A DNA stretch of 47,024 nucleotides from Thioalkalivibrio sp. GTDB taxonomy: Bacteria; Pseudomonadota; Gammaproteobacteria; Ectothiorhodospirales; Ectothiorhodospiraceae. The notes beneath the pieces were generated by a model. The model was not told where the DNA came from and ran no database searches. It worked only from the letters and a program-made list of their open reading frames with translations. The DNA lies in NCBI GenBank assembly GCA_011389655.1, contig JAABTX010000011.1, forward strand, positions 1 through 47,024, written 5' to 3'. Every line of letters begins with the position of its first letter. The first letter of the stretch is position 1. This document shows, in pieces, positions 371-44,293 of this stretch. A program made the position numbers and the translations under genes.

Positions 371-518
371 TGCGATCCGGGTGTCGTCTTCAGACGAGGT
401 TCAGGCTACGCTTTTAGTGTAATACGTGGCTGCGGGTGCTGCATGGCCGGTGCCCCTGCCCATGGATCGCGTGCGGCCTTGCCGCCCGCCGATGCCGAAG
501 GACCCGGAGATCGAAGAC

Positions 519-1504: not shown

Positions 1505-2802
1505 ACGCGCCGGGGCTGAGCCTGCGGCTGCGCATCAGCCTGGTGGCGGCCGCGGTGATCGCCGTGTTCTTTGTGCTCACCGCGACGTTGCTGGAACGCG
1601 CCTTCCGGGAGAACGCGGAGGACGCCGTGACGACTCGTCTGGATGCGCAGCTGCTGTTGCTGATGGGCATCGTCGAGGTCTCCGGTGCGCGCGAGGTCCA
1701 GCTTCCGGAGATCCTGCCGGACCCGCGGCTCGCGCTGCCCGGGGGCGGGGTGTATGCCCGTATCCTGGATGCCGGCGGCGCCACGCTGTGGCGCTCCCCC
1801 TCGGCGCTCGGCACCCGGCTGGAGGACTGGGACGACGACGGGTTCTTCGAGCGCCGGATGACCGTTCAGTGGGAGCTCCCCGGACAGCTTGTGCCCCTGA
1901 CCTTCCAGGTGCTCGAGGAGCGTGATGCCTACGACGCGCAGATGGAACGCTACCGGCGAACCCTCTGGGGGGCGCTCGGCCTGCTCACGATCCTGCTGAT
2001 CTCGGGGCAGGCGCTTGCCCTCGGCCTGTGGGGGCTGCGGCCGCTGCGGCGCGTGCGTGCCGACCTCGACGCGTTGCGCCAGGGTGAGCACAGGCGGCTC
2101 GGGGGGCCGTACCCGCACGAGATCCAGACCCTGACCGACAGCATCAATGCGCTGCTGGAATTCGAGGGGGCCCGTCTGGAACGGCAGAAGCACGCGCTGG
2201 CGGACCTGGCGCACAGCCTCAAGACCCCCCTGTCCGCGTTGCGTCTCGGGATCGAGGGCCCGAGCGCCGAGCGCCGCGAGCTGCTGCTGCAGATCGAGCG
2301 CATGCAGGACATGATCCAGCACGAGCTGAACCAGGCGCAGCGCCTCGGTCCGTCCCCGTTCCAGCCGCCGGTGGCCGTGGCACCGGTGATCGAACGGACC
2401 GGCTCCGCGCTGCGCCGGATCGCGGACCAGCACGGGGTCGAACTGGCGATGTCGCTGCAGCCCGAGTGCACGCTGCGGATCGAGACCGGGGCGCTGTTCG
2501 AGCTGCTGGGCAACCTGCTGGACAACGCCATTCGCCACGCCCGCGCGCAGGTGCGGGTCGGCCTGACCTGTTCGGGCCGGCGCCTGGAGCTGACCGTGGA
2601 CGACGACGGTCCGGGCATCGACGGGGCCCACCGGGAGGCGGTGCTGCGCCGCGGCGCGCGGCGCGATACCCGGCCGGGTGGCCAGGGTCTCGGGCTGCAC
2701 ATCGTGCACACGCTGGTGCGCGATCACGGCGGCGAACTGCACATCGAGCAGGCCCCGGAGCTCGGCGGGGCGCGCATTCGGATGGTGTTTACGCAGTCTT
2801 GA
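1501..2802 (+). CDS. PhoQ-like sensor histidine kinase
   Basis: A 433-residue membrane kinase. TM1 is at about residues 12-33, a periplasmic sensor region of about 120 residues follows, and TM2 is at about 155-177, followed by a short HAMP-like linker. The H-box DLAHSLKTPLSAL carries the phosphorylated H238; the SLKTPL form is typical of PhoQ-type kinases. The ATPase domain shows the N-box (LLGNLLDNAIRHA), the G1 box (DDDGPGI) and the G2 box (GGQGLGLHIV). The start overlaps the regulator stop by 4 bp. The periplasmic domain has acidic clusters (LEDWDDDG) that could bind cations, but it is not clearly a PhoQ sensor fold. A palindrome at 2851-2878 lies past the stop, where it could act as a terminator. 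Confidence 0.9.
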   Translation: MNAPGLSLRLRISLVAAAVIAVFFVLTATLLERAFRENAEDAVTTRLDAQLLLLMGIVEVSGAREVQLPEILPDPRLALPGGGVYARILDAGGATLWRSPSALGTRLEDWDDDGFFERRMTVQWELPGQLVPLTFQVLEERDAYDAQMERYRRTLWGALGLLTILLISGQALALGLWGLRPLRRVRADLDALRQGEHRRLGGPYPHEIQTLTDSINALLEFEGARLERQKHALADLAHSLKTPLSALRLGIEGPSAERRELLLQIERMQDMIQHELNQAQRLGPSPFQPPVAVAPVIERTGSALRRIADQHGVELAMSLQPECTLRIETGALFELLGNLLDNAIRHARAQVRVGLTCSGRRLELTVDDDGPGIDGAHREAVLRRGARRDTRPGGQGLGLHIVHTLVRDHGGELHIEQAPELGGARIRMVFTQS

Positions 2803-2850
2803 TCGGCGTCGCGTCAGCCCGGCGGAGCGCATACAGCCGGAAACGTGGAA

Positions 2851-2878
2851 ACGGGGACAGGTTAAAATCTGTCCCCGT
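2851..2878. repeat. GGGGACAG/CTGTCCCC palindrome, copy 1
   Basis: An inverted repeat with 10-bp arms, ACGGGGACAG and CTGTCCCCGT, around an AT-rich centre. It sits between two convergent genes (histidine kinase and amine dehydrogenase), so the hairpin might also end transcription. The same core recurs at 4281-4305 and 13419-13444, and a degenerate half occurs near 46775. Confidence 0.85.
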
Positions 2879-2942
2879 CGGAGCGTGCGTCCGTCTGAAC
2901 GCATGGAAAGGTGCCCTCTCCCCGACGAGGGCCGCCCCGCTC

Positions 2943-4190
2943 TCAGGGCAGGAACGGCTCCAGCGGCAGCGCGGGCGTGCGGCCGAGGATGCTGTCGCGC
3001 ACCAGGCCTGCGGACCCGCAGGCGAAGGTCCAGCCCAGGTGGCCGGCGCCGGTGTTCAGGTACAGCCCGGGAACCGGGGTCGGGCCGAGGATCGGGGTGC
3101 CCCGCGCGCTCATCGGCCGCAGCCCGGCCCAGGGTTCCATGGTGTCGGGGTCGACGTGTTCCGGGAGCCATGGCAGGGTGCGGCGGCACTGCGCGAGCAC
3201 GTTCTCCGCCCGGGAGACATTCATGCGCAGGTCCGCCCCGGTGAACTCGGCCGTCCCGGCCAGCCGCAGGCGGCTGCCCAGCGGTGTCAGCACCACCTTG
3301 TTGGCATCGTCGATGATCGGCAGTCGCAGTCGCGAGGCGCCGTTGAGGTGCAGGGTCAGTGAGTAGCCCTTGACTGGCGCCACCGGGAGCCGGATGCCGA
3401 GCCTGCGCAGGAGTCCGGGCGCGGCAAAGCCGCTGGCGAGGACGACCGCATCGGCAGCCATCGGTCCGCGCGAGGTCTCGACCCCGTTGATCCGGCCCTG
3501 GAAACGCCTCCAGCCGGTAACCGTGGTGTTCGGCCGCCAGCGCACGCCGGCGCGTTCGGCGACGGCGGTCAGTTCGCGGGTGAACGTCGCGGCATTGCCG
3601 ATCGCGTCGCCCGGGAAAAACAGTGCCCCGCAAAGACGGTGCGCTATCGGCTCCAGCGCGGGTTCCTCGGCCGCGACCCGGGCCGCGTCCCAGTCCTCGA
3701 AGTGCACGCCGACGTCGGCCATCCGGCGGCTGGCATTGCGGTTCTTCTCGAGGCTCTGCGGATCCTGGAAGATCTTCAGGATGCCGGATTCGGCAAAGTC
3801 GAAATCGAGCGCCAGCTCCTGCTGCAGCGCCCGCAGTTCGCGCAGGGAGTACTCGGCGAGGCGCGCGTTCACCAGGGTGTTGCGCTCGAAGCGCCCGCCG
3901 CGGCTGTTCCACAGGAATTCGATGCCCCAGGGCACGAGGCCGGGCAGGGCGCGCGGGCGCAGCAGCAGCGGAGAGTCCGCGCGGCCGATATGGCGCAGCA
4001 GGTCCCAGCCGACGCCGGGGGCGTTCCAGGGTTCGGCATGGCTCGCATGCAGCATGCCGCCATTGGCGGCGCTCGCGCCCTGGGCAGGAAGATCGGCGGC
4101 GTCCAGCAGGGTCACCGACAGGCCGGCATCACGCAGAAACCAGGCGGTGGTGGTGCCCGTGACGCCGGCCCCGATCACGATTACGTGCAT
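2943..4190 (-). CDS. FAD-dependent D-amino acid dehydrogenase (DadA-like)
   Basis: A 415-residue flavoprotein of the DAO family. The N-terminus has the dinucleotide-binding signature IVIGAGVTGTTTAWFLRDAG (residues about 4-23), and an acidic residue (LLDAADLP) follows at the end of the second strand. Towards the C-terminus, MEPWAGLRPMSARGTPILG and the glycine-rich GAGHLGWTFACGSAGLV are characteristic of DadA small subunits. The expected reaction is oxidative deamination of a D-amino acid to the 2-oxo acid with electrons passed to the respiratory chain; glycine oxidase is the main alternative. The start at 4190 is preceded by GAGGA, 9 bp upstream. It lies downstream of hrpA on the same strand but is separated by about 100 bp and a palindrome, so it may have its own promoter. 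Confidence 0.85.
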   Translation of the reverse strand: MHVIVIGAGVTGTTTAWFLRDAGLSVTLLDAADLPAQGASAANGGMLHASHAEPWNAPGVGWDLLRHIGRADSPLLLRPRALPGLVPWGIEFLWNSRGGRFERNTLVNARLAEYSLRELRALQQELALDFDFAESGILKIFQDPQSLEKNRNASRRMADVGVHFEDWDAARVAAEEPALEPIAHRLCGALFFPGDAIGNAATFTRELTAVAERAGVRWRPNTTVTGWRRFQGRINGVETSRGPMAADAVVLASGFAAPGLLRRLGIRLPVAPVKGYSLTLHLNGASRLRLPIIDDANKVVLTPLGSRLRLAGTAEFTGADLRMNVSRAENVLAQCRRTLPWLPEHVDPDTMEPWAGLRPMSARGTPILGPTPVPGLYLNTGAGHLGWTFACGSAGLVRDSILGRTPALPLEPFLP

Positions 4191-4280
4191 TGCGGTCAGT
4201 CCTCGTTGGTTCGCGGTGGCGTGGGCGCACTGTAACCCACGTGGAGTGCCCCTGAGGCGGTGTTGTTCCTTGTGATGTTC

Positions 4281-4305
4281 GGGGACAGGTTTTAAATCTG
4301 TCCCC
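4281..4305. repeat. GGGGACAG/CTGTCCCC palindrome, copy 2
   Basis: Arms GGGGACAG and CTGTCCCC flank an AT-rich centre of 9 bp. The 3' end of hrpA runs into it: the last codons of hrpA (Gly-Gln-Ile) and its TAA stop at 4294-4292 are made from palindrome sequence. It also lies about 90 bp upstream of the start of the downstream dehydrogenase gene. Confidence 0.85.
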
Positions 4306-7300
4306 TTTTGCCATTGCCTTGGGAGAGGGGGAAGGGTTGGGGAGGGGGGCCGCGGCGCAATTCGTCCAGCTCGCGTGAGAGGCGCTGAATCGAGACCTTT
4401 TCCCGGGTCCCGAGTTCCTGGGCGAAGACCGAAACCCGCAGCTCCTCCACGCGGTAGCGGAAACGCGTGACTCGTGGGTCCCCCGGGTGCGCGGTCAGCA
4501 GGCGCTTGGCCTCGTCCCAAATCGGCTCGATGTCCACGCGCAGGCGGCGGTCCTTGTCCGGCGCCTGTTCGAGGCGCTGCAGGCGTCTTGCGATCGCCTG
4601 CAGGTAGCGCGGCAGTTCCGGCAATACACCGGGCGGGGTCGCGAGCAGGAAGTCGGCCGGTACCAGGTATTCCAGCTGATCCCGGATGTCGCGCGCCGCC
4701 TCGATCCAGGACAGCGGCAGGTCGCCGTCCAGCCGGCGGCGCAACTGGTGCCAGTCGGCGAGGATCCGCGCGGCGAGCCGGGACAGCTCCATCGCGACGG
4801 GCGTCAGTTCGGCCCGGCCGGCCTCCAGGCGCGCCTCGAAGGTCCGGGCATCGCGCGGCCACGGTGCCTCCGCGAGGAACACGCGTTCGGCCGCGGCGGC
4901 CAGGATCTGGTTCCGGAGTGCGTCGCAGCTACCCAGCGGTGCGTAGTGCAGGCAGGCGTGCTGGATGTCGGGAAGCTGTCGCCGCAGATCGCGCACGATG
5001 CGGTGGCAGCCGAGCAGGAAGAGGCGGCGCAGACCGCTCCGCTGCAGGTGCCGGGCGCTGTCCGGATCGGGCTCCAGCCGCAGGTCGACGCTGTCGCCGG
5101 CATCGGCCAGCGCCGGGTAGGCCCGAAGCCGTGCGCCCTGGTGATCGAACTCGACGAACTCCGGCAGCGAACCGAAATCCCAGCGCGTGATGCCGGCGCG
5201 CGTGATGTCGTCCGGACGCGTGCGGTCGAAGTGCGCACCCGCGGTGTCGCCGAGGCGTGCCTTCAGCGCGGGCAGGTCGCGCCCGGACGCGGCCTCGGCG
5301 CCGTCCGGGTCCAGTACCCGGAAGCGCATGATCAGGTGCGGCTCCAGGCTGTCCGGGCGCCAGGCCTCCGGCGGCACGCGCGTGCCCGTGATCGCCTCCA
5401 GCGCCTCGCCGAGTGCCGGCAGCAGCGGCCCCTCGCGGGACGGCATCCGCTCCAGCGCAGCCCGGGCGAAGTCGGGTGCCGGGACGAAGTGGCGGCGCAG
5501 GCCCTTGGGCAGACTGCGCAGCAGCCCCACCACGCGTTCCTCCAGCAGCCCGGGTACCAGCCAGTCGCCGAGCCAGTCGGGCAGTCCGTTCAGCGCGGCG
5601 ATCGGGACGGACACGGTGACCCCGTCGTCCGCCTGCCCGGGCTCGAAGCGGTAGGACAGCGGCAGGCGCAGCCCCCGGACCTCCAGCGCGTCCGGATAGG
5701 CGCCCTGCGGCAGGGCGGCCTCGGGCTCCTGCAGCAATGCGGCCCGGTCGATCTGCAGGATCTGCGGGTCGGTCTTCTCGGCCTTGCGGATCCACGCCTC
5801 GAATGTGGGTCCGTCCACCACGTCTCCGGGCAGGCGCTGATCGTAGAAGTCCCGCAGCCGGTCCTCCTCGGCCAGCAGGTCGCGGCGGCGGCCGCGGGCC
5901 TCCATCTCCGCGATCTCCGCGACGGTCGCGAGATTCGCGGCGAGGCCGCTCGAGCGCGAGCGCAGCTGGCCCTCGACCAGGCCCTGCTGGATGAACAGCC
6001 GGCGCGCCTGTGCCGGATCGTGTCGGGCGAAGTTCACCGGGGCCCGCGGCGCGACCACCAGGCCGTAGAGGGTGATCCGGTCCCGGGCGCCCACCCGGCC
6101 GGTGCGGGCCTGGAAGTGCGGCTCGTGGATGTCGTGCTTCAGCAGGTGCGGTGCCACCGCGAGGATCCAGTCCGGCTTGATCGCGGCCACCTCGCGTGCG
6201 TACACACGGGTGGTCTCGGCGATCTCCGCGCCGACGACCCATTCGGGACGGCGCTTGGCCTGGCCCGACGCCGGGTGGATCTGGAAGCGGCGGTTGCGTG
6301 TGCCCAGATAGTCGCCGCGCTCGGTCTTGCGGCCGACGTGGCTGACCAGACCCGCGAGCAGGGCCTTGTGCAGGTCCGTCGGGTCGGCGGGCAGCGTGTT
6401 CCGCTGCAGACCCCCGGAGCGGGCCAGGGTCAGCAGCTGTGCGCGCAGTTCCTGCCACTCGCGCATGCGCATGAAGGCGAGGAAGTGTTCCCGGCACCAG
6501 CGTTTGAGCGCACTGCTGCCCAGGTCTTCACGGGTCTGGTGCCAGGCCTCCCACAGGCGCAGGATGCCGAGAAAGTCCGAGCCCTCGACGTGAAATTCCC
6601 GGTGCGCCTCGTCCGCCGCCTGCCGGTGCTCGGCCGGCCGCTCCCTCGGGTCCTGCAGCGCGAGAAAGGCGGCGATGGTGACGGCTTCGGCCAGCACGGC
6701 GCGCTCGCCGCCAGCCGCGATCATCGCGGCGAGTCGGGGATCCACCGGGAAGTGGGCAAGGCGGCGCCCGGCGGGGGTGATCCGGCCCCGGGCGTCCACG
6801 GCGTGCAATTCCTCGAGCAGCCGGTAGCCGTCGCGGATCAGGCGCGTGTCCGGAGGCTCGACGAAGGGGAAGTGTTGCGGGTCCCCCAGGCCGAGCGCGG
6901 CCATCTGCAGGATCACCGCCGCGAGGTTGGAACGCAGGATCTCGGGGTCCGTGTATTCCGGCCGCAGTTCGAAGTCCTGCTCGTCGAACAGCCGGATGCA
7001 GATGCCGGGGCCCAGGCGCCCGCAGCGCCCGGCGCGCTGGGTGCAGGAGGCGCGCGACACCGGCTCCAGGGACAGGCGCTGCAGCCTGGAACGCCAGGAG
7101 TAGCGCGATATGCGGGCCAGTCCGCTGTCGATCACGAAGCGGATTCCCGGCACCGTGAGCGCGGTCTCGGCGACGTTGGTCGCGAGCACGATGCGCCGCC
7201 CGGGATGGGGCCGGAACACCCGGCTCTGCTCGGCCGCGGACAGGCGTGCGTAGAGCGGCAGGATCTCCGTGTGGGCCGGCTGTTCGCGGCGCAGGCGCTT

Positions 7301-16381: not shown

Positions 16382-16800
16382 GCACTCTCTCCCCGGGCCC
16401 GGCGATCGTTGTCTGAAGCAGGGCCGCGTTGGCGGATCGATTCCATGGATGGCCGCCGCACAGGGCTGGCGCGACACGACCTGAAAGTGTAGCCGAATCG
16501 GTACAGGCCATAAACCCGAAAGCGGGGATCGCGGGTGGAGCCCGCTCCTTGTGGGAGCGGCCTCCGGCCGCGATGGGGTGTGGCTTTGGGAGATCGCGGC
16601 TGGAAGCCGCTCCCACTGGAAGCCGATCCTTGTGGGAGCGGCCTCTGGCCGCGATGGGGTGTGGCTTTGGGAGATCGCGGCTGGAAGCCGCTCCCACTGG
16701 AAGCCGCTCCCACTGGAAGCCGCTCCTACGCGGGGCGATTGCGTTCTCGACGCTCCCTGATTATTGTCCAGCGAGTTCGGGTTACACCGGGAGCCGCTCG
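16382..16800. other. divergent gap between pntAA and the HNH gene, mostly REP array
   Basis: About 120 bp next to pntAA are unique and should carry the pnt promoter. The rest, up to about 16735, is the repeat array described separately. The last 65 bp before the HNH gene contain its ribosome binding site (GGGAG). Confidence 0.7.
16523..16735. repeat. REP-like array with 81-bp tandem units
   Basis: Two copies of an 81-bp unit begin at 16551 and 16632. Each has a hairpin GAGCGGCCTCYGGCCGCGAT, a spacer GGGGTGTGGCTTTGGGA, and a second hairpin GATCGCGGCTGGAAGCCGCTCC. After the second copy, a 16-bp piece (CTCCCACTGGAAGCCG) is repeated in tandem about three times. A related half unit starts near 16523. 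The units share their hairpins with the array at 10701-10840. Confidence 0.85.
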
Positions 16801-17388
16801 ATGGTACCGCTGCAACAGCAGGTCCTGCGCACGGACGCCTCCGGAATGCCGCTGGAGTGGATCGATTACCAGCAGGCCGTGCGTCTGTATCACGGCGGAC
16901 AGGTGGCCTATACCTGCGGCACGCTGCTGTACCGGATTCGTGGCGGCGTCAGCGCCCGCACCGGCCGCCGGTCGCTGGTGGAGGTCAATTCGATCATCGC
17001 CACGCAGGGAACGAACCGGACGCTGCACAGGGGCTATGTCCCGCCGCTGAACAACGACACCCTGTTCCGCCGCGACGCGCACATGTGCCTGTACTGCGGC
17101 AAACGTTTCGAGGTTCGGGACCTGTCGCGCGATCATGTGACGCCGCTGAGCCAGCACGGCAGCGACACCTGGGTCAACGTCGTCACCGCGTGCAAGCGCT
17201 GCAACAACCACAAGGCCGGGCGCACCCCGGAGCAGGCAGGGATGCAGCTTCTGGCGATCCCGTTTCGTCCTACCCATGCGGAGTACGTCTACCTCAAGGG
17301 CCGGCGCGTGCTCGCGGACCAGATGGAGTTCCTCCAGGCCCATTTCCCGCGCAGCAGCCCGCTGCGGGATCGCCTGCTCCGCAGCTGA
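16801..17388 (+). CDS. HNH endonuclease family protein
   Basis: A 195-residue protein with a zinc-ribbon HNH nuclease domain. C96/C99 (CLYC) and C131/C134 (CKRC) form the zinc site. D111-H112 (RDHVTP), N126 (WVNVV) and H137 (NNHKAG) supply the HNH catalytic triad. The N-terminal half (MPLEWIDYQQAVRLYHGGQVAYTCG) is conserved in a widespread chromosomal HNH family of gammaproteobacteria whose role is not established. The ATG at 16801 follows GGGAG. A 104-bp gap with a stem-loop separates it from hemH, so I would not assume one operon. It lacks a methylase or other restriction partner here, so classic restriction is unlikely. Confidence 0.88.
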   Translation: MVPLQQQVLRTDASGMPLEWIDYQQAVRLYHGGQVAYTCGTLLYRIRGGVSARTGRRSLVEVNSIIATQGTNRTLHRGYVPPLNNDTLFRRDAHMCLYCGKRFEVRDLSRDHVTPLSQHGSDTWVNVVTACKRCNNHKAGRTPEQAGMQLLAIPFRPTHAEYVYLKGRRVLADQMEFLQAHFPRSSPLRDRLLRS

Positions 17389-17427
17389 GGGCAGGTGCGG
17401 GTCGCAGCCGTAGCGAACCGCCTCCAT

Positions 17428-17452
17428 CTGTCCGGGTCCACTTTCCGGACAG
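17428..17452. terminator. stem-loop between the HNH gene and hemH
   Basis: CTGTCCGG and CCGGACAG pair across a 9-nt loop, 40 bp after the HNH gene. There is no T-run, so it may be a transcript-end hairpin or a processing site rather than an intrinsic terminator. Confidence 0.4.
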
Positions 17453-17492
17453 CCCTCCAGAGACCCCCGACTCATCCGCGCGAGGAACCAGC

Positions 17493-18587
17493 GTGAAATA
17501 CCAAGGCGAACCCGATTACCAGCATGGCAGCCCCGAATACGTCGGAGTGCTGGTCACCAATCTGGGCACCCCGGATGCCCCGACGCCGCGGGCGCTGCGC
17601 CGCTACCTGAAGGAATTCCTCTGGGACCCGCGTGTGGTCGAGGTGCCGCGGCCGCTGTGGTGGCTGATCCTGAACGGCGTGATCCTGAACATCCGGCCTC
17701 GGCGGAGCGCGGCAAAATACGCAAGCGTCTGGACCAACGAGGGTTCGCCGCTGCTGGTGATCGCGCAGCGCCAGGCGGAGGGGATCCGCAAGCGCCTCGC
17801 GAGGCTGGCGAGTGGACCGATCCCGGTCGCGGTGGGAATGCGCTACGGCAACCCGTCCATTCCCGATGCACTGAACGAACTGCGCCAGCAGGGCGTGCGC
17901 AAGCTGGTGGTGCTTCCGCTCTATCCCCAGTTCTCCGCGAGCACGACCGCCTCCACCCTGGATGCGGTATCGGGGGAGCTGCGCGCCTGGCGCTGGACGC
18001 CGCATCTGCACTTCATCTCCGGCTACGAACGGGAGCCCGGCTACATCAACGCGCTGGCCGCCAGCGTGCAGGAGCACTGGGAACAGAACGGACGCGCGGA
18101 GCGGCTGATCATGTCCTTTCACGGCGTGCCGAAGCGCTATCTGCTGGCGGGGGATCCGTATCACTGCCTGTGCCACGCAACCGGCTTCCAGCTTGCCCAG
18201 ACCCTGGGGCTGGAGCAGGGGCAGTGGCAGGTCACCTTCCAGTCCCGGTTCGGGCGCGCGGAGTGGCTGCGGCCCTACACGGACGAGACCCTGAAGTCCC
18301 TGCCGGACCAGGGCGTGAAGAGCGTCGACGTGATCTGCCCGGGCTTCTCTGCCGACTGCCTGGAGACCATCGAGGAGATCGGGGACGAGAACCGCGAGAT
18401 CTTCCTCGAGGCCGGCGGCCAGCACTTCAGCTACATCCCGGCCCTGAACGACCGTCCGGACCACCTGGACTTCCTCACCGACCTGCTGCTCCGGCACGCA
18501 GGCGTCTGGCTCGAGCAGCTGGATAACGAGCCGGAACGGCGCTCGCGCGCGCGCGAGCGGGCTGTCGCGCTGGGTGCCGCGCAATAG
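17493..18587 (+). CDS. hemH: ferrochelatase
   Basis: A 364-residue enzyme that inserts Fe2+ into protoporphyrin IX, the last step of protoheme synthesis. The N-terminus GVLVTNLGTPDAPTPRALRRYL is the family signature. The metal-binding histidine is in MSFHGVPKRYL, and the second active-site region is CPGFSADCLETIEEI with conserved acidic residues. The start is a GTG at 17493 with GAGGA 6 bp upstream; there is no ATG at the right place. The CinA-like gene starts about 10 bp after the stop. Iron uptake by the feo operon further along the window feeds the same metal but is not linked genetically. Confidence 0.95.
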   Translation: MKYQGEPDYQHGSPEYVGVLVTNLGTPDAPTPRALRRYLKEFLWDPRVVEVPRPLWWLILNGVILNIRPRRSAAKYASVWTNEGSPLLVIAQRQAEGIRKRLARLASGPIPVAVGMRYGNPSIPDALNELRQQGVRKLVVLPLYPQFSASTTASTLDAVSGELRAWRWTPHLHFISGYEREPGYINALAASVQEHWEQNGRAERLIMSFHGVPKRYLLAGDPYHCLCHATGFQLAQTLGLEQGQWQVTFQSRFGRAEWLRPYTDETLKSLPDQGVKSVDVICPGFSADCLETIEEIGDENREIFLEAGGQHFSYIPALNDRPDHLDFLTDLLLRHAGVWLEQLDNEPERRSRARERAVALGAAQ

Positions 18588-18600
18588 ATCGGCAGGGATG

Positions 18601-19419
18601 ATGGGCCGGGTCGAGATCGGTGCGGTAATCATTGGCGACGAGATCCTGAGCGGCAAGCGCCGCGATCGGCACCAGGCCGCGCTGATCGATTCACTGGCGG
18701 CGCAGGGCCTGGAGCTGGCATGGCTGCGCATCGTCGGCGACGATGCGCAGCTGCTCACCGGCACCTTCCGCGAGACCCTGCAGCGGGACGCCTTCGTCTT
18801 CAGTTTCGGTGGCATCGGGGCGACCCCGGACGACCGGACCCGCGCCTGCATCGCCCGTGCGCTGGGGCGACCGCTGGTCCGGAATCCGGAGTTCGTCGCC
18901 CTGCTCGAGGCGCGCTTCGGCGAGGAGGCCTATCCCAACCGGGTGCGCATGGCCGAACTCCCCGAGGGCTCCACGCTGATTCCCAACCCGGTGAACGGCA
19001 TCCCCGGATTCGCCTGCGAGCGGCACTTCTGTGTACCGGGGTTCCCGGCGATGGCCGAGCCGATGGTGCGCTGGGTGCTGCACTCGCACCTGGCCGGCGT
19101 CGCCCCGGCGCAGCGGCCGGCGGAGATGAACCTGCGCCTGTCCGGGGTGCCCGAAAGCCGTTTGGTGCCGCTGCTCGAGATGATGGAGGCCCGCTATCCG
19201 GACCTGCGGATCTCGAGTCTGCCGGGGTTCCACGACGGAAGGCCGCGGGTGGAACTGGGCGTTCGGGGGGAGGCCAGTCGTGCCGCGACGGCCTTCCAGA
19301 TGCTGCAGCGCCACCTGCTGGAGGCCGGCCTCATCGCGCGGCCCGAGGATCTCGAGATCCTGCCCCCACGCGCCATGGCCGGCGCGACCAGGGTCTCCGG
19401 GACCGGGAACGCGGTATAG
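18601..19419 (+). CDS. CinA-like molybdopterin-binding domain protein
   Basis: A 272-residue protein with a MoaB/MogA-like MoCF_biosynth fold in its first 170 residues, shown by IGAVIIGDEILSGKR and FSFGGIGATPDDRTRACIARA. It lacks the C-terminal nicotinamide-nucleotide amidase (CinA_C) domain of full CinA, so deamidase function is not expected. In related proteins this stand-alone form is annotated as competence/damage-inducible protein A domain; a nucleotide pyrophosphatase activity is possible. ATGs at 18598 and 18601 are adjacent; I chose 18601 because the AGGG element is too close to the first. It is probably co-transcribed with hemH. Confidence 0.85.
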   Translation: MGRVEIGAVIIGDEILSGKRRDRHQAALIDSLAAQGLELAWLRIVGDDAQLLTGTFRETLQRDAFVFSFGGIGATPDDRTRACIARALGRPLVRNPEFVALLEARFGEEAYPNRVRMAELPEGSTLIPNPVNGIPGFACERHFCVPGFPAMAEPMVRWVLHSHLAGVAPAQRPAEMNLRLSGVPESRLVPLLEMMEARYPDLRISSLPGFHDGRPRVELGVRGEASRAATAFQMLQRHLLEAGLIARPEDLEILPPRAMAGATRVSGTGNAV

Positions 19420-19486: not shown

Positions 19487-20146
19487 GTGGAAGCGTCCGC
19501 GTACCTCCCGGTGCCCAGTCATCTCGATGCCCTGGCCAGTTCCGGCCTGGCGGTCCTGCCGGATTACCTGGACGCGACGCTGGTCGACGCGCTGCGCAGG
19601 GAGCTTCACGCCGCGCGTACGGCGGCGGGACTGTACCGGGCGCGTGTCGGCCGGGGACACCGGCGCCGCCTGGCCGCTGCGGTTCGGGGTGACTGGATCC
19701 GCTGGCTGGACGGGTCGACCGAGGTCCAGCGACTCTTTCTTGCCCGGCTGGAGGAAATCCGGGAGCAGGTCAACCGTTCCCTGATGCTCGGCCTGTTCGA
19801 GGTCGAGGCCCACTTCGCGCTGTACCCGCCGGGTGCCGGCTATCACCGGCACGTGGACGCCTTCCAGCAGGACAACCCGCGGCGGCTGTCGGCGGTCCTG
19901 TACCTGAACCGCCACTGGCGCCGGGTCCAGGGCGGCGAGCTGGCGATCTACGACGCATCCGGTGGTGAGGTGCTGCGCATCCTTCCGGAGGCCGGCACGC
20001 TGGTGCTCTTTCTCAGCCAGGGCGTCCCCCACGCGGTGCTGCCGACCCGCCGCTGGCGTGCCAGCATCGCCGCCTGGTTCCGCGTCCGTCAGGCGGACAA
20101 TCCGCTGGCCGGCCTGGCACGGCTGCAACCGGATGACCTTGCCTGA
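19487..20146 (+). CDS. 2OG-Fe(II) dioxygenase (prolyl hydroxylase-like)
   Basis: A 219-residue double-stranded beta-helix dioxygenase. The Fe(II) ligands are H122 and D124 in HRHVDAF and H182 in VPHAVLP. R189 or R191 is placed to bind 2-oxoglutarate. The LSAVLYLNRHW and GGELAIYD stretches match the SM-20/EGL-9-related prolyl 4-hydroxylase family. Bacterial members hydroxylate proline in a protein target, for example EF-Tu in Pseudomonas, but the target here is unknown. The start is a GTG at 19487 with CGGAGA upstream. It follows the CinA-like gene by 67 bp and precedes the large helicase by 88 bp on the same strand. Confidence 0.88.
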   Translation: MEASAYLPVPSHLDALASSGLAVLPDYLDATLVDALRRELHAARTAAGLYRARVGRGHRRRLAAAVRGDWIRWLDGSTEVQRLFLARLEEIREQVNRSLMLGLFEVEAHFALYPPGAGYHRHVDAFQQDNPRRLSAVLYLNRHWRRVQGGELAIYDASGGEVLRILPEAGTLVLFLSQGVPHAVLPTRRWRASIAAWFRVRQADNPLAGLARLQPDDLA

Positions 20147-20234: not shown

Positions 20235-23200
20235 ATGATCGGCGGGGGGCACAGCTTGGTTGACGGGGCTGGTAAGGCAGTGAATGCCCATGAGCGCGAT
20301 CCGGTGGCACCGGCCGGCGTCGCGGCTGCCGATGGCATGCCCTGGCTGCCGCTCGTCCGGTATCACCGCGAGATCCTGAACCGGATCCAGGCCGCGGCCG
20401 CGACTCCCGATTCCGCCGATCCCGGCCGCGAAGCGGTCGAGGGGCTGCTCGAGGAGTACCGGCGGCTCGAATCCCTGCTCAGCGATAATCCCGCGGAGTG
20501 CGGCGGCCTGCGGCTGATGGCGGGTCCCGCGCGGCCGGGTGCCTCCGAAGCGGCCTTGTGCGGCGATGATGCCCCGCCGATGCTGTCGGCGGTGCCACTG
20601 GACGATTCGCAGCGGCGGGCGGTTCGCAGGGTCCTGGGAGGCGCCGGTCTGACCGTGATCGAGGGCGGCCCCGGATCCGGCAAGACCGAGGTTCTGCTGG
20701 CGGTACTGCTGACCGCCTGGTCGACGGGCCGCACGGCGCTGCTGGTCGGTGCCGGCGGGCGGTCGGCCGCCGTCGCCGCCGACCGGCTCCAGGACCTGCA
20801 CCTCCCGGTTCCCGTCGCTGCCACCGTCACGGCGGATCGCCACGAGGCCCTCCCCGCGATGCTGCGCGATCTGCTTCGGCTCGCGGGTGCCAAAGGCGGG
20901 GAAGTCTCCGGCCTGCCGGATGCCGATGCCCTCGCGACCGCACGAAGGTCGCTGCAGCGTGAACGTGCATCGCTGGCGACGGCGCTGCACTCGGACCTCT
21001 CCGATCGGTTGCTGGCCGCGGCCCGCTCGGTGCTTTCGGCCGGGACACAGGCGCGTGAGCGGCTCGCCGCGCTGGAAACGGAGGCGGCCGGTCTGCGGAC
21101 GGAACAGCGGCGGCTGGGGCTAGAAGCCCTGGATCCGGAGGCGGTCGAGCCGGCGCTGACCGCAACCCGCCGCTGGCTCGACCGGGTGGCCGATTACCAG
21201 CGGCTGGCGGGCGAGGACGCGGAGCGCCGTTCGCGGCTGGACGCAGCTATCCGGGGCCAGGAACAGCAGCGGGACCGGGTGCTGGAGGTGGCCGGTCTGG
21301 CCGCCGGCACTGAGGAAGACAGAGGCTGGCTGGTCGAGCCGGAATGGGCGGCGCTGATCGAGGACTGGGGCCGGCGGTTCGCACGGCTGCTCGGTCAGTC
21401 GCCGGAGGCGGCCCTGGCACCCATCGGCTGGCGCCCGGAGTACGGACGCTGGAGGTCCGGGGCCGAGGCGGAGTCGTGGGCCGAACGGGTCCGGGTACTG
21501 GCCGGATCGCTGCAACAGCTGGCGGGGGAGCTGGAGCAGGCGCTGGAGCGCAATGGGGACCGGCGGCAGGATATGGAGAAGCAGCGGGTGAAGATCCGCG
21601 GCCTCGGCCTCCCCGAGGACTTCGATCCAAAGGCCGAGGTGATTCCGGACTGGCTGGCGGCCTACCGCGAACTGCAGGGGCGCCGGCCCCGTGCGCTGGA
21701 TGTCTTGCCCTGGTCCGACTGTGCGCGGCTGCGGCGACGCATGCGGCGCCTGGAACGGCAGCTGCTGCCGCTGCTGCCACCTGCGATTCACGTCAGCGTG
21801 GGTGCGCTGGACCCGCGCGGACGGGCGCGCCTCGCCTCGGTGCTCGAGGCCGCGCATCGCTGGACCGCGATGCAGGCGGCGCAACGGCGGATCCGGGCGG
21901 AGACCGAGCCGCAGCGGGAGGCGCTGGAGCCTCTGCGCCGGGAGGCCGAAGGACTGGGCCTCGCGGCCCTGCCGTCAGGGGAAGACCCGCAGGCCCAGGC
22001 GCGCGCGGCCTCCCGCATGGAGGAGGAGGCGGTGCTCGGGATGCAGGCTTCGCAGGCGTGGCACAGGCGGGAGGCCAGGGAACGTGCGACCGAGGCGCTT
22101 CGGGAGATCGCCCGGGAATGGGCGTGGCTGACCCCCGGGGTCCCATTGCTGGAGGCATGGCGCCACGGACCTGGGCGGGACCTCGACCGTGCGGTGCGCA
22201 TACTCGCGGTGCAGGCGGATGCGCCCAGCATTGCCGTGGCCCGTGATGCGATCGCCGGAGGGCTGCTGTCCCGCCTTCAGCAGAGCTGGAGGAGTGCCTC
22301 GAATCACGAACACTCGGCCCGCCGCCTGCGGGCGGAGCGGGAAGCCGTTCCGGGGATCGCGACGCGCCGTACCGAATGGCTGAAGGAGCGTCCTGCGGAC
22401 AGCCTGCTGGACGCGACCGAGATCGGTGACGGCGCCTGGCCCGATGCCGATGAGGCACTCGCGCGGCTGGACGCGGTTGCGGACTGGTGTGTGCGCTGGC
22501 GATTCTTCCGGCAGGAGGACGAGCCGATCGCCCGGCAGGAGGTGACGGGCCGGCTCAACGACGCGACGGCATCGATGGAAGCCCTGATCCGGCAACTGCC
22601 GCCCGGTCCGGAGGTGAACCGGCTGTTTGGCCTGATGGCAGACGCTCGGGGCCGTCCTGGGGAGACGCTACCCGAGGCGGCGCTGCTGGAGGCCTGCTCC
22701 GCGTTCAGCCCCGACGGCCTGCGGGGGCGAATCGAGGCGATCGATCGGGAGCTGGAGCGGGGTCTGCTCCAGTCCGCCCAGGCACGGCATCTGCAGTGGC
22801 TGCGGGCCGATGCGGGGGTGCAGCGCGTGTTGGCATCCACGCTGGAACGTGCCGGGTCATCGGGAGCAGGCATGGCACGGGCGCCGCTCGAGGATTTTCG
22901 GGAACTGCTGCGCGCGCTTCCGGTGTGGATCACCGATGTCCGCGGTCTGGACAACCTGCCGATGGCGCCCGGTCTGTTCGATCTGGTGGTCATCGACGAT
23001 GCCCCGCGGGCAACCCTGACGGGTCTGTTGCCGGCCATATTTCGGGGTCGGTCGCTGGCCGTGACGGGTGATCCGCGGACCACTTCGGCGCACCCGGGCA
23101 TGCACGCGGCCGGGGCCTCGGTGCCGCGCGACCGTTTTGGTGTGGAGGGGTGTCCGCCGCGCCTGACATGCGCCGGGGGCGACCTGTTCCGCGCGACGCT

Positions 23201-24107
23201 GGAGTCCCTCGCACATCCACCGCAGGATCGGCTCGTGCTCGCACGCAGCTATCGTGGGCACCCCGCGATCCTTGCGCTGTGGAGCCGGCTGCTCTGCCCC
23301 TACCAGCCCGTGCGCCCTGTCCCGGGGGCGGGGAGCCGGCGCGACGATGGCGTGCGCATTGTCGACGTGCCGGCGACGGCCGAACCCGCGCCGCCCGGAA
23401 GCAACTGGTGCAACCTCGCCGAGATCGCGAAGGTGGTCGAGCAGGTCCGGGATCTTCGGCGGCGCTCCCCCGAGTCGAGCCTCGGTGTGATCACGCCGTT
23501 TCCCGCCCAGCGCGACCGCTTGCGGGCCGAGTTGCAGGATCTGCAACCGGACGGACGCTTGACCATCGACCTGCCCGCTGTCTTTCAGGGCGGGGAGTGG
23601 GATGTGATCGTGTTCAGTCCCGCGGTCGCCCGGGGTATGCCCGCCGATGCGAGACGCGAGGTGGATGCCTCGCCCGATCTGTTCGCCATCGCACTGACCC
23701 GCGCCAGGGAAGCGCTGCATCTGGTCGGAGACGTGGAGTTCTGTCTGGAGCAGGAATATCTGCTCCGGGAACTCGCGGTGCACTGCCAGGACCTGTGTCG
23801 ACTGCGACAGGACATCCCGGACGCGGAGGAGCTGTTCACCTCCATGATACTCGAGGGCTGGGTACCGAAGGTGCAACCCTGTATCGGCGACCTCCGTGTC
23901 GATCTGGCATTCGAAGGCGGGCCGGGCCGGCAGGTCGCGATCGAAATCGAGGTCGATGGCGGGGCGTCGCGTGGTGGCGCCGCCCGCGCCAGGGCGCGCG
24001 AGGCCTACCTCGAGTGCATGGACTTCCGGCTGCTGCGGCTGGCGGCAGCGCCGCTGCGGGAGGACCCGTCATCGGCCATCGACCGGATCCGGTCGGTGCT
24101 TGGCTGA
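20235..24107 (+). CDS. UPF1-like SF1 helicase with C-terminal nuclease-like domain
   Basis: A 1290-residue protein. A Q-motif (LDDSQRRAV, about 122-130) and Walker A GGPGSGKT (144-151) mark a superfamily 1 UPF1/Dna2-type helicase. A very long, largely helical insertion with coiled-coil stretches (about 250-880) follows. The second half of the motor then returns: motif II VVIDDA (918-923), motif III GDPRTTS, motif IV SYRGHP, motif V GVITPFPAQRDRL, VFQGGEWDVIVFS and motif VI ALTRAREALHLVGD. The last 80 residues look like a PD-(D/E)XK fold of the Vsr/MTES_1575 kind: D1223 in RVDLAFE and E1237-x-E1239 in IEIEVDGG. Motif II has Asp for the catalytic Glu (DDA, not DEA) and motif III lacks QLP. There is no partner gene. 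The role is unknown; DNA repair or phage defence are possibilities. A GTG at 20280 is an alternative start. Confidence 0.75.
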   Translation: MIGGGHSLVDGAGKAVNAHERDPVAPAGVAAADGMPWLPLVRYHREILNRIQAAAATPDSADPGREAVEGLLEEYRRLESLLSDNPAECGGLRLMAGPARPGASEAALCGDDAPPMLSAVPLDDSQRRAVRRVLGGAGLTVIEGGPGSGKTEVLLAVLLTAWSTGRTALLVGAGGRSAAVAADRLQDLHLPVPVAATVTADRHEALPAMLRDLLRLAGAKGGEVSGLPDADALATARRSLQRERASLATALHSDLSDRLLAAARSVLSAGTQARERLAALETEAAGLRTEQRRLGLEALDPEAVEPALTATRRWLDRVADYQRLAGEDAERRSRLDAAIRGQEQQRDRVLEVAGLAAGTEEDRGWLVEPEWAALIEDWGRRFARLLGQSPEAALAPIGWRPEYGRWRSGAEAESWAERVRVLAGSLQQLAGELEQALERNGDRRQDMEKQRVKIRGLGLPEDFDPKAEVIPDWLAAYRELQGRRPRALDVLPWSDCARLRRRMRRLERQLLPLLPPAIHVSVGALDPRGRARLASVLEAAHRWTAMQAAQRRIRAETEPQREALEPLRREAEGLGLAALPSGEDPQAQARAASRMEEEAVLGMQASQAWHRREARERATEALREIAREWAWLTPGVPLLEAWRHGPGRDLDRAVRILAVQADAPSIAVARDAIAGGLLSRLQQSWRSASNHEHSARRLRAEREAVPGIATRRTEWLKERPADSLLDATEIGDGAWPDADEALARLDAVADWCVRWRFFRQEDEPIARQEVTGRLNDATASMEALIRQLPPGPEVNRLFGLMADARGRPGETLPEAALLEACSAFSPDGLRGRIEAIDRELERGLLQSAQARHLQWLRADAGVQRVLASTLERAGSSGAGMARAPLEDFRELLRALPVWITDVRGLDNLPMAPGLFDLVVIDDAPRATLTGLLPAIFRGRSLAVTGDPRTTSAHPGMHAAGASVPRDRFGVEGCPPRLTCAGGDLFRATLESLAHPPQDRLVLARSYRGHPAILALWSRLLCPYQPVRPVPGAGSRRDDGVRIVDVPATAEPAPPGSNWCNLAEIAKVVEQVRDLRRRSPESSLGVITPFPAQRDRLRAELQDLQPDGRLTIDLPAVFQGGEWDVIVFSPAVARGMPADARREVDASPDLFAIALTRAREALHLVGDVEFCLEQEYLLRELAVHCQDLCRLRQDIPDAEELFTSMILEGWVPKVQPCIGDLRVDLAFEGGPGRQVAIEIEVDGGASRGGAARARAREAYLECMDFRLLRLAAAPLREDPSSAIDRIRSVLG

Positions 24108-24205: not shown

Positions 24206-26890
24206 CTAACGTCGGCCGAGCACGGCGAGCGCGAGCTGGCCGAGGACCAGGGGTACGAGGCTGCCGGCGAGGATCACGATCCACTCCGCCGGATTGGGCG
24301 GCGTCACCTGCAGCAGCGCCGCGAGCGGCGGTACGTAGACTGCCGCGGCGAGGAGCGCGGCGCAGAGCGCGATGGCACCCCATACCCAGAGGTTCATCAC
24401 CAGATCGTTGCGCAGCATCGGTGAGCCCGGGGCACGCATGTTGAAGACGTGCCACAGGCGCGCGAGGCCGTAGGTGAGGAAGGCCATGGTCACCGCCGTG
24501 CCGGTGTCCACCTTCATCACCAGCAGCGCCCAGGCGAACACCCCCAGCAGCGCTGCGGCCATGAGCAGCCCGAAGCCCCCTATGCCAAGCCAGTGGCCCC
24601 GGGTGAGGATGGGCTCGTCCGGGTCGCGGGGCGGCTGGCGCATGATGTCCGCGCTGCCCCGGCTCACCCCAATGGCGAGCGCCGGGAACACGTCCAGCAG
24701 CAGGTTGAGGAAGAGGATCTGCAGGGGCAGCAGGGGCAGGGGCGCATTCACCAGGGCCGCGGCGGAGACGCCCACGATCTGCCCCAGGTTGCCCGAGAGC
24801 AGGAACACGATGAAGCGGCGGATGTTTTCGAAGATCGCCCGGCCCTGGTCGATGGCCGTGACGATGGTTTCGAAGGCGTCGTCCTTGAGGACGATGTCGC
24901 TGGTCTCGCGCGCCACCTCGGTGCCGCGCCGGCCCATGGCGATGCCGATGTCCGCCTTCTTCAGCGCCGGGGCGTCGTTGACCCCGTCTCCGGTCATCCC
25001 GACCACCTCGCCGCGGTCCTGGTAGGCGCCAACAAGAGAGAGCTTCTGCTCGGGCGAGACCCGCGCGAACACGGCGGTCTCGTGCACCTTCTCCGCACGC
25101 TCCGGGTCGCCCTCGCCGAGGTCGCCCAGCTCATGCCCGCCCATCGGCGCTGACTCGTCATCCGCGCCCACGATGCCGATGGCGCGGGCGATGTTGGCCG
25201 CGGTGGCGGATTGATCGCCGGTAACCATCACCACCCGGATTCCGGCCTCCTGGCAGGTGCGGATGGCCTCTTTCACGCTTTCCCGCGGTGGATCGTAGAG
25301 TCCCACGAGCCCGAGCAGGGTGAGACCCGCGTAGGGTGCCTCGTCGGCGCGCGCCGCCCGTTTCTCGGCCACCGCCAGCACCCGCAGGCCGTCGCCTGCC
25401 AGGGCCTCGTTGCGCTTGACCCAGACTTCGCGCCCGGCATCGTCGAGCTCCGTTTCCTCGCCGTCTTCCAGCACCCGGGTGCACACGTCGAGTACCGCCT
25501 CAGGCGCACCCTTGACGGCCACCAAAAAGCCATCCTCTAGCCGATGGAAGGTGGCCATCTTGTTGGTCTCGGTGTCGAAGCTCTCCTCGCGTTCCTCAGG
25601 CAGTTCACGGAGCAGATCGGGACGGCGCAGACCGGCCCGCGCGCCCGCCTCCACCAGCGCCACCTCCGTCGGATCCCCCGAGGCACCGCCCCCGTCCTCG
25701 AGCTCCGCGTTGGAGCACAGCACGCCGACACGCAACGCGCGGCGCAGGTCGTCTTGCTTCTGCGGGTCGACGTCCTCGTCATCCAGCCGGAAGCGCGCGT
25801 CGCCATCCTCCCGGGAGACCTCCGTATCCCCGGCGGCGAGCGCGACGCGCCGGAGCACCATGCGGTTTTCGGTGAGGGTCCCGGTCTTGTCGGAGAAGAT
25901 GACCGTGGTGGCGCCCAGGGTCTCCACGGCAGCAAGCCGCTTGACCAGGGCATTGCGCCGTGCCATGCGCCACATTCCCCGTCCCAGGGCCACGGTGGCC
26001 ACGATCGGCAGCCCCTCGGGCACCGCAGCGATGGCGAGCACGATGGCGGTCTCCACCATGATCAGGAGATCCTTGCCCGCCACGATCCCGGAGGCCGCCA
26101 CCCCGATGCCGACCACAATCACGAGGTAGATGAGGCGCTTGCCAAGACCCTCCAGGCGCCGCTCCAGGGGCGTGGTCTCCTCCTCCGCCTCCTCGACCAT
26201 CGCCGAGATCCGGCCGATCTCGGTGTCCATGCCGGTGGCCACCACGACCCCCTCGGCACCCCCCCGGGACACCGCGGTGCCGCTGAAGACCATGTTCTCG
26301 CGCTCCGCGAGGGGAGTCTCCGGATCCTCAAGAGGATCGGTGGTCTTGGACACCGGCACCGACTCGCCCGTGAGGGCGGCCTCGTTGCACTGGAGGTTTT
26401 CGACTTCGACCAGGCGAAGATCCGCCGGCACCATTTCCCCCTCGCCCAGGAGCACGACGTCCCCCGGCACCAGTTCGCTGGACGGAACCTCCCGCTCCTC
26501 CCCGTCCCGGCGGACCCGGGCGGACATCTGCCCCATGCGCCTCAGGGCCTCCATGGACTGGAGCGCCTTCCACTCGGTCACGAAGCCGATGACCGCATTG
26601 ATGACCAGCGCCGCCGCGATGGCCACCGCTTCCACCAGTTGGCCGAACACGGCCGCGATGGCCGCGGCGACCAGCAGCAGGATCACCACCAGGCTCTTGA
26701 ACTGGTCGAGGGCGACCCGCCACCAGGGCTTCCGGCCGCTCTTGCGAAGGCGGTTGGGCCCGGTCTCCTCCAGCCGGCGGCTGGCCGTGCCCGCCGAGAG
26801 ACCCCGCTCCCGCGCCACCTCGAGAGAATCCAGGAGCTCGTCGACCGGACGCAGAAAGGGCGGGCGGGACGCGTCGTTATCAAGGCTCAC
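24206..26890 (-). CDS. P2-type cation-transporting ATPase
   Basis: An 894-residue P-type ATPase. The N-terminal cation ATPase domain (about 10-70) precedes TM1-2. The actuator has LTGESVPVS. TM4 carries VPEGLP, the metal-binding signature of Ca2+ and related pumps. The phosphorylated D334 is in DKTGTLT, and the hinge is TGDGVNDAPA. Six TM segments make up the last third. The VPEGLP form and the overall length fit the PMA1/SERCA-like bacterial subgroup, which exports Ca2+, Mn2+ or other divalent ions; the exact ion cannot be told. A substrate-binding NAVxxNDx motif in TM5-6 reads LLPLQILFLNLLLDVFPALA, the usual place for LNLxxD. The gene stands alone between convergent and divergent neighbours. 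Confidence 0.92.
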   Translation of the reverse strand: MSLDNDASRPPFLRPVDELLDSLEVARERGLSAGTASRRLEETGPNRLRKSGRKPWWRVALDQFKSLVVILLLVAAAIAAVFGQLVEAVAIAAALVINAVIGFVTEWKALQSMEALRRMGQMSARVRRDGEEREVPSSELVPGDVVLLGEGEMVPADLRLVEVENLQCNEAALTGESVPVSKTTDPLEDPETPLAERENMVFSGTAVSRGGAEGVVVATGMDTEIGRISAMVEEAEEETTPLERRLEGLGKRLIYLVIVVGIGVAASGIVAGKDLLIMVETAIVLAIAAVPEGLPIVATVALGRGMWRMARRNALVKRLAAVETLGATTVIFSDKTGTLTENRMVLRRVALAAGDTEVSREDGDARFRLDDEDVDPQKQDDLRRALRVGVLCSNAELEDGGGASGDPTEVALVEAGARAGLRRPDLLRELPEEREESFDTETNKMATFHRLEDGFLVAVKGAPEAVLDVCTRVLEDGEETELDDAGREVWVKRNEALAGDGLRVLAVAEKRAARADEAPYAGLTLLGLVGLYDPPRESVKEAIRTCQEAGIRVVMVTGDQSATAANIARAIGIVGADDESAPMGGHELGDLGEGDPERAEKVHETAVFARVSPEQKLSLVGAYQDRGEVVGMTGDGVNDAPALKKADIGIAMGRRGTEVARETSDIVLKDDAFETIVTAIDQGRAIFENIRRFIVFLLSGNLGQIVGVSAAALVNAPLPLLPLQILFLNLLLDVFPALAIGVSRGSADIMRQPPRDPDEPILTRGHWLGIGGFGLLMAAALLGVFAWALLVMKVDTGTAVTMAFLTYGLARLWHVFNMRAPGSPMLRNDLVMNLWVWGAIALCAALLAAAVYVPPLAALLQVTPPNPAEWIVILAGSLVPLVLGQLALAVLGRR

Positions 26891-41749: not shown

Positions 41750-42144
41750 ACCTGGAACCCTTGGTGTTGCCGGTGGCGGAGGGAGAAGCTTTGATCTTGG
41801 CACCAGGGTGACCGACTCGTGGCCCGACTGTTCCGCGTACAGGACAACAACGGCACCGAGGTGCCCCGGCCGAGGTGGACGAGGCCTTCTATGGCGACTG
41901 ATCACGCATGCCAGTGTGCGAACCGGCGTGATTGTATGCTGATTCGCGACGCCGGGTGCTCGATTCTCTTTCACTGCTTGTCCCGTTATCGACGTAGCGC
42001 AGCATGCCGCTGGGATCTGTCGATCGCGGTCATCAAGCATCGACCGCTCCGAGCCAAAGGCCGATGCGAAGCGCTTTTGCAAGAAGGCGCCGCTATGATC
42101 CGATCCAAATACCCCACGGCATACGCCGTCTCCTGGAGGAACCC

Positions 42145-44249: not shown

Positions 44250-44293
44250 TGCGCATCGCGGTTGCGGTTGACCAGCACCACCAGGGGACAGCG

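Follow-up and report, generated by a model that had tools for sequence, protein, structure and literature searches.

A UPF1-like helicase-nuclease fusion of Thioalkalivibrio with motor motifs altered in steps at a fixed genomic locus

Helicase-nuclease fusions recur among bacterial immunity systems. The nearest published architecture that we found is CnuH of the Type III-B CoCoNuTs. CnuH is described (PMC11090510) as a helicase of UPF1 type whose Walker A motif is followed by a helical insertion, and to which a Vsr-like nuclease is fused in the Type III-B systems. These systems possess partners of the McrB and McrC types together with CnuA and CnuD, and their CnuH carries an N-terminal winged helix-turn-helix (wHTH) domain and a predicted OB fold. 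Fusions of superfamily I (SF1) helicases with Vsr domains are also described for giant proteins that contain, in addition, HEPN, transglutaminase and wHTH domains (PMC3710099). In this study, we analyzed a contig of 47,024 nucleotides (the window; contig C357 of a Thioalkalivibrio sp. genome of 3.46 Mb in 367 contigs), where a single open reading frame (ORF) encodes a 1290-aa protein with a UPF1-like SF1 motor and a C-terminal Vsr/DUF559-like nuclease domain. Residues of motor motifs II and III were lost in steps along the tree of this family, and the second motor half and the nuclease domain are under purifying selection at a fixed locus.

Compared by described architecture, the 1290-aa protein resembles CnuH in its UPF1-like SF1 helicase, the large insertion after Walker A and the directly fused Vsr-like PD-(D/E)xK nuclease. 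It differs from CnuH in its altered motor and in having no counterpart of the N-terminal domain that is present in its relatives. By analogy, the protein may work like CnuH or may derive from something like it. It was not filed as a CoCoNuT, because the McrC family (PF10117) had no match in the host genome (0 of 1; the control was positive in 1 of 14 genomes). McrB and McrC genes were also not recognized by Pfam among 30 neighbor frames of the window, McrB being searched in these frames and not genome-wide. The protein shares with the MTES_1575-type giant proteins (PMC3710099) an SF1 helicase with a Vsr-family nuclease domain, and no HEPN, transglutaminase or wHTH domain was found in it by Pfam at E values up to 1.

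Models of other known helicases match the protein below their cut-offs. The Hhe model (NCBIfam NF042953) matches the P-loop region and scores 22.9 bits (cut-off 2000). The top two NCBIfam matches, the IGHMBP2-family helicase TIGR00376 (60.5 bits; cut-off 348.9) and the PLuB helicase NF040671 (53.7 bits; cut-off 999), are located mainly on the second motor half. The best PADLOC match is MkoA of Mokosh (1.9e-21, residues 909-1172), and PDC-S37 also matches the second motor half. Mokosh requires a kinase or phospholipase D (PLD) domain or gene; neither was found in the 1290-aa protein or in the neighbor frames, except for a histidine-kinase-type protein at 748-2802. A literature search on DUF559 helicases returned no title on this protein, and one on pseudohelicases found nothing.

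Codon-position G+C is coding-like along the whole ORF, and Pfam identifies AAA_11 (8.8e-8, residues 122-161) and AAA_12 (6.8e-15, residues 996-1167). A profile built from 28 relatives matched the solved structures of SEN1, UPF1, SMUBP-2 and related proteins with a best E value of 1.2e-55. Motifs I, IV, V and VI are all present, and together with the two Pfam domains they assign the protein to the UPF1-like SF1 helicases. The helicase-nuclease fusion proposed by a previous sequence-only reading of this DNA was thereby borne out, with Pfam and profile matches for both the motor and the nuclease.

A genome scan provided the relatives, of which the best 80 of 157 were kept. The motif table comprises 82 rows, without duplicate contig records, fragments and rows that start or end early (L029, L033, L034, L052 and others). 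Eight of these rows, including the 1290-aa protein, form one clade and are referred to as close rows, and the 74 aligned more distant relatives as wider rows. Rows L025, L026 and L028 are presumably the copies of genomes G036, G028 and G038, respectively. Asp921, Glu922, Gln949, Arg1007 and Arg1156 are each found in 74 of the 74 wider rows. The 1290-aa protein has Asp at position 922 and Thr at position 949, and thus lacks the Glu and Gln expected of SF1 motors. The departures IDDA in motif II and GDPRTTS in motif III, pointed out in the sequence-only reading, are therefore real and beyond chance. Gln949 is missing in all six aligned Thioalkalivibrio rows, and Glu922 is changed to Asp in four of them; both D922 and T949 are common to the 1290-aa protein, L025, L026 and L028, which represent four species. 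Motif II reads EDA in L026, and DDA with R at position 925 in L025, L028 and the 1290-aa protein. L027 and L031 retain DEA with Gln949 gone, L029 (read separately) is also without Gln949, and L030 and L032 are canonical at positions 921, 922, 949, 1007 and 1156. The change of motif II is a local departure, because DEA is kept in 74/74 wider and 4/8 close rows.

A phylogenetic tree was constructed from the second motor half of the 82 rows, and the close subfamily is recovered in it as a single clade of eight rows (100/100), with a bootstrap not fully settled. Within this clade, and with the same limit on the bootstrap, the order is L032 (Methanoregula), L030 (bacterium DOLZORAL124_64_63), the pair L027 and L031, and then L026, followed by L025 and the pair formed by the 1290-aa protein and L028. 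The motif II and III residues were lost in steps along this tree. Up to 83 columns that are near-invariant in 16 wider rows were further compared, and the retained columns amount to 75/83 in L030, 68/79 in L032, 60/83 in L027, 52/83 in L026, and 49/83 in both L025 and the 1290-aa protein.

Two gammaproteobacterial relatives of the close subfamily from outside Thioalkalivibrio, read apart from the motif table, end before motif IV and are without the second motor half and nuclease. L033 (9323-12787) has IDQATQ as motif II. L052 (9314-12613) has IDDATR, and its evidence is weaker because the gene is frameshifted and partly masked.

The N-terminal region was also reduced, which the sequence-only reading had not noted. 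About 200 residues separate a first PW element at the N-terminus from another of the PW(V/I)LF type in L027, L029, L022, L030, L033 and L052, and about 175 residues of this stretch are gone in the 1290-aa protein, L025, L026 and L021. The N-terminal domain of the relatives gave no Pfam match in six members and no sequence match in the PDB, and its profile matched the N-terminal region of five wider relatives weakly, with 6.9% probability. The large insertion of the motor was described in the sequence-only reading as a 630-residue coiled coil that splits the motor in an unusual way. The insertion itself is confirmed, with 772 residues from the P-loop to motif II in the 1290-aa protein and 766-781 in five other full-length close rows, but the heptad signal is at about chance level (6 of 93 windows at p<0.05), and a helical reading rests on composition and a profile match to SMC3. 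The same distance has a median of 296 residues (165-682) in 73 wider rows, and 12 of them reach at least 500 residues; an insertion unique to the close subfamily was thus ruled out.

A Vsr/DUF559-type nuclease fold at the C-terminus, as proposed before, is supported by profile matches to solved structures. The profile from a 19-row alignment matched 3HRL with 5.8e-13 and 3R3P with 6.3e-7, and that from six close rows alone gave 1.2e-8 and 7.2e-4, respectively. The MTES_1575 model aligns to the 1290-aa protein over nearly its whole length (1.1e-4) with 22.6 bits, below its curated cut-off of 38.2. DUF559 scores 14.5 bits in the 1290-aa protein, below its cut-off of 20.6, and is above this cut-off in L027 and L030. 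The nuclease domain aligns nearly end to end with the DUF559/Vsr-like nucleases 3HRL and 3R3P, and differs from them by a 2-aa insertion in the catalytic strand and by having no His soon after E-x-D-G.

The residues of a D...E-x-D-G metal site are present as D1223, E1239 (or E1237), D1241, G1242, R1255 and R1268, and E1237, D1241, G1242, R1255 and R1268 are invariant in the 19 rows. Codons 1236-1241 read ATC GAA ATC GAG GTC GAT, where codons 1236-1239 form a near-perfect 6-bp tandem repeat. Among the 19 aligned rows, the two extra residues occur only in the 1290-aa protein and L028 (G038), and E1239-V1240-D1241-G would therefore correspond to the E-x-D-G of the family. In the other close Thioalkalivibrio copies and in L030, DG (DD in L031) comes immediately after IEV or IEI. 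The pattern D1223...E1237-x-E1239 given in the sequence-only reading was right in pointing to a Vsr/MTES_1575-type site, but the signature is E-x-D-G and not E-x-E; it is most naturally read as a putative D1223...E1239-x-D1241-G that follows a 6-bp duplication. Most relatives have a His after E-x-D-G, and the 1290-aa protein (DGGASRGG) has none. Another residue also replaces the aligned His in L025, L026, L027, L028 and L031, and L025 and L026 possess a His one residue later.

The ratio of nonsynonymous to synonymous substitution rates (dN/dS) was calculated for the 1290-aa protein against the copy of G036, that of G028 and the pieces of G038, with 95% bootstrap ranges. Against G036, the values are 0.35 (0.30-0.41) for the whole protein, 0.42 (0.21-0.79) for the P-loop part, 0.34 (0.28-0.43) for the insert, 0.25 (0.17-0.35) for the second motor half and 0.25 (0.13-0.42) for the nuclease. 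The corresponding values against G028 are 0.35, 0.36, 0.40, 0.26 and 0.18, and the C-terminal piece of G038 gave 0.30 (0.22-0.41). The second motor half stays at 0.25-0.30 over the three comparisons with upper 95% limits of 0.35, 0.35 and 0.44, and the nuclease at 0.18-0.32 over the comparisons. The N-terminal remnant (residues 1-117) is weakly constrained, judging from dN/dS of 1.00 (0.65-1.72) against G036, 0.57 (0.37-0.86) against G028 and 1.32 (0.74-2.88) against G038. The neighboring genes encoding a 2-oxoglutarate (2OG)-Fe(II) oxygenase and a MoCF-type protein gave 0.13-0.17 and 0.27-0.31, respectively. These values denote that the protein is kept, more loosely than the 2OG gene product. 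No internal stops were reported in the orthologous frames.

The closest orthologues come from metagenome-assembled genomes (MAGs) of Thioalkalivibrio. Among 47 genomes of the order, matches were found in nine, of which G039 and G043 hold distant relatives and were set aside; the close helicase is thus present in seven genomes, all in one genus. Single-contig genomes of this genus, G013 and G014 for instance, have no copy of it. The gene order hemH-MoCF-2OG oxygenase-helicase is the same in the window and in six orthologous loci. Across species, identities of the helicase and of the 2OG oxygenase decrease in broadly parallel order, in keeping with vertical descent. Of the 47 family genomes, 25 possess the 2OG gene, seven with the close helicase and 18 without it, the latter also within the genus. 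Five of eight helicase-less loci have hemH-MoCF before the 2OG gene, and one hits the contig edge just past it. The genes 3' of the 2OG gene differ between helicase-less groups, with one set in L131 and L132 and another in L135 and L136.

Beyond the order, a class sample of 369 genomes gave three matches outside the host genome, mostly on the second motor half, and one of them includes most of the nuclease. No match was found in 50,697 phage records. Plasmid records gave 45 matches, none covering more than 80% of the query, and the 20 matches listed cover 27%. A pattern scan of viral contigs found at least two distant relatives. One IMG/VR contig, L150, encodes (191-4789) a 1532-aa helicase of the wider family with canonical IDEASQ and a C-terminal E-x-D-G nuclease-like stretch. 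The motors of L079 and L082 are identical in MAGs labeled Rhodospirillales and Gammaproteobacteria, pointing to a recent transfer or a binning error.

No defense family was recognized by Pfam in the 30 neighbor frames of the window, on which PADLOC was not run. A total of 24 of these frames have Pfam matches, to housekeeping, transport and signaling proteins and an unknown-function family; three of the six frames without a match are alternative frames over hemH and MoCF. The view that the helicase stands without accessory genes therefore held within the reach of Pfam. It had also been reasoned that homologues found throughout in housekeeping settings, with no nuclease fold at the C-terminus, would speak against a helicase-nuclease of this kind. 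The surroundings of the Thioalkalivibrio copies are indeed of the housekeeping type, but profile matches support the nuclease fold.

The neighbors of the wider family lean to a conflict setting. We compared 57 neighboring proteins from 18 loci (including one extra protein at L033) with PADLOC at 1e-10 and found 39 families, such as Type II methyltransferases, restriction enzymes, PDC-S11, HEC-01 and HEC-07; the loci were chosen rather than sampled and have no background control, and the 25 families listed each occur in one or two of the 57 proteins. Upstream (5') of the helicase in L030, a frame at 526-1995, which looks frameshifted after residue ~305, matches HEC-01B of PADLOC with 8.9e-106. 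A DUF1016/YhcG nuclease is found on the 3' side in L032, and a DUF6036 nucleotidyltransferase adjoins L033. Among the wider relatives, L081 (8861-15593), which has a Vsr-like C-terminus, is adjoined on the other strand by McrC (PF10117) and a McrB-type AAA_5 gene. An Eco57I-type methylase adjoins L051, and a TOTE conflict-system gene adjoins L035.

The 1290-aa protein may be explained as a vertically kept, functionally shifted (domesticated) derivative of a defense-type UPF1-like helicase-nuclease, a reading that we hold to be evenly poised between right and wrong. The ancestors, as represented by L030 and, as far as its contig shows, L032, would have possessed complete SF1 motifs, the long insertion and a C-terminal Vsr-like nuclease, together with the N-terminal domain seen in L030. 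Probably, foreign or aberrant nucleic acid was the track of their motor and the substrate of their nuclease. Within Thioalkalivibrio, the gene became fixed behind the 2OG oxygenase gene and lost the motif III Gln first and then the N-terminal domain and the motif II Glu, which was replaced by Asp. Because the P-loop and motifs IV-VI remain, the protein likely still binds ATP and may still bind nucleic acid, with hydrolysis likely weak or lost. It could act as an ATP-gated clamp rather than a translocating helicase, holding the nuclease, or simply the bound strand, in place. Nuclease activity and defense ancestry are likewise inferred, and defense or repair, as raised in the sequence-only reading, is a possible function.

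Several observations weigh against this explanation. An Asp that substitutes for the Glu can preserve part of the ATPase activity, and the nuclease may be weak too, because the His after E-x-D-G is absent. At 0.35, the dN/dS of the whole protein exceeds that of the 2OG neighbor more than twofold, though it is near that of MoCF, and the N-terminal piece compared with G038 reaches 0.63 (0.44-0.89). The truncated L033 and L052 fit decay equally, and some of the 57 neighbors of the relatives are plainly non-defense proteins, e.g. a NosL match. We consider unlikely the bolder proposal of a repeated pseudo-helicase conversion, in which this former helicase-nuclease would now be a non-hydrolyzing, ATP-binding nucleic-acid clamp maintained by selection in a single lineage, and in a separate lineage (L033 and L052) the motif II Glu would have given way to Gln or Asp, with the second motor half and nuclease removed altogether.

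The retained P-loop, motifs IV, V and VI and nuclease acids would also suit a fully active one-protein anti-phage helicase-nuclease, in which Asp922 replaces Glu adequately and the motif III Gln is dispensable, as would the purifying selection, the conflict-type neighbors of the relatives and the patchy spread over one archaeon and distant bacteria. This appears rather doubtful to us in view of the invariance of Glu922 and Gln949 in the wider rows, the loss of the N-terminal domain, and the fixed locus with no Pfam-recognized defense gene nearby; the absence of matches in phage records points the same way, with little bearing on a host defense gene. Relaxed selection on a gene heading for loss, by which motor, N-terminal domain and nuclease residues are being stripped, could account for the stepwise loss of invariant residues, the dN/dS of 0.57-1.32 for residues 1-117, the two residues inserted in the nuclease strand and the truncation of L033 and L052 before motif IV. 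The low dN/dS of the second motor half, including its upper limits, the lack of reported internal stops and the altered residues common to four species make such a fate quite improbable. The sequence-only reading had held that DEA in nearly all relatives would mark this copy as merely decayed. DEA is kept in all wider rows and in half of the close ones, but mere decay is not well supported, because purifying selection acts on both the second motor half and the nuclease, and four species have D922 and T949 in common. The fixed position 3' of the 2OG oxygenase gene in the window and six orthologous loci would agree with a housekeeping factor of nucleic-acid repair or RNA quality control linked to that enzyme. 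This explanation is the hardest to believe, since 18 of the 25 genomes with the 2OG gene are without the close helicase, the genes after 2OG vary between helicase-less groups, and single-contig genomes of this genus are known that do not have the helicase. Sequenced genomes contain such a protein in intact, half-altered and strongly altered stages, so that it is directly testable whether it can dispense with its ATPase and remain of use to the cell.

Table 1. Coordinates of the helicase-nuclease gene, its motifs and domains, and the adjacent genes in the window.
Feature	Coordinates	Strand	Basis or conservation
UPF1-like SF1 helicase with Vsr/DUF559-like nuclease, single ORF, 1290 aa	20235..24107	+	ORF, Pfam, profile
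N-terminal remnant, residues 1-117, retains PWL..VR.H and LLEEYRRLESLL	20235..20585	+	
Motif I / P-loop GGPGSGKTE, residues 144-152, intact	20664..20690	+	
Long insertion from motif Ia to motif II, ~residues 201-884, common to close subfamily	20835..22886	+	
Motif II, altered, IDDA, residues 920-923	22992..23003	+	
Motif III, altered, GDPRTTS, residues 945-951	23067..23087	+	
Motif IV SYRGHP, residues 1005-1010, Arg retained	23247..23264	+	
Motif V FQGGEWD, residues 1117-1123, retained	23583..23603	+	
Motif VI LTRAR, residues 1154-1158, retained	23694..23708	+	
Vsr/DUF559/MTES_1575-type nuclease domain, residues 1200-1288	23832..24098	+	Pfam, profiles
D1223, putative first metal-site acid	23901..23903	+	D in 65/74 wider rows, 8/8 close rows
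I1236-E-I-E-V-D1241, 6-bp tandem duplication in catalytic strand	23940..23957	+	
2OG-Fe(II) oxygenase, immediately 5' of helicase here and in 6 orthologous loci	19487..20146	+	
MoCF-type molybdopterin-binding protein, conserved neighbor	18574..19419	+	
Frame with ferrochelatase domain (hemH), conserved neighbor	16764..18587	+	
P-type cation ATPase, downstream neighbor	24206..26890	-	

Four orthologous contigs reach past the helicase (L027, L019, L020 and L008), and the P-type cation ATPase has no match in any of them. Near the end of the window, two frames without Pfam match (42004-43332 and 44246-45718) flank a DUF6384 protein (43332-44249, E value 6.9e-120). The frame with the ferrochelatase domain is extended by a long N-terminal stretch, whose equivalent in L131 is a separate ORF of 216 aa, and two genes may be read through as one frame in the window.

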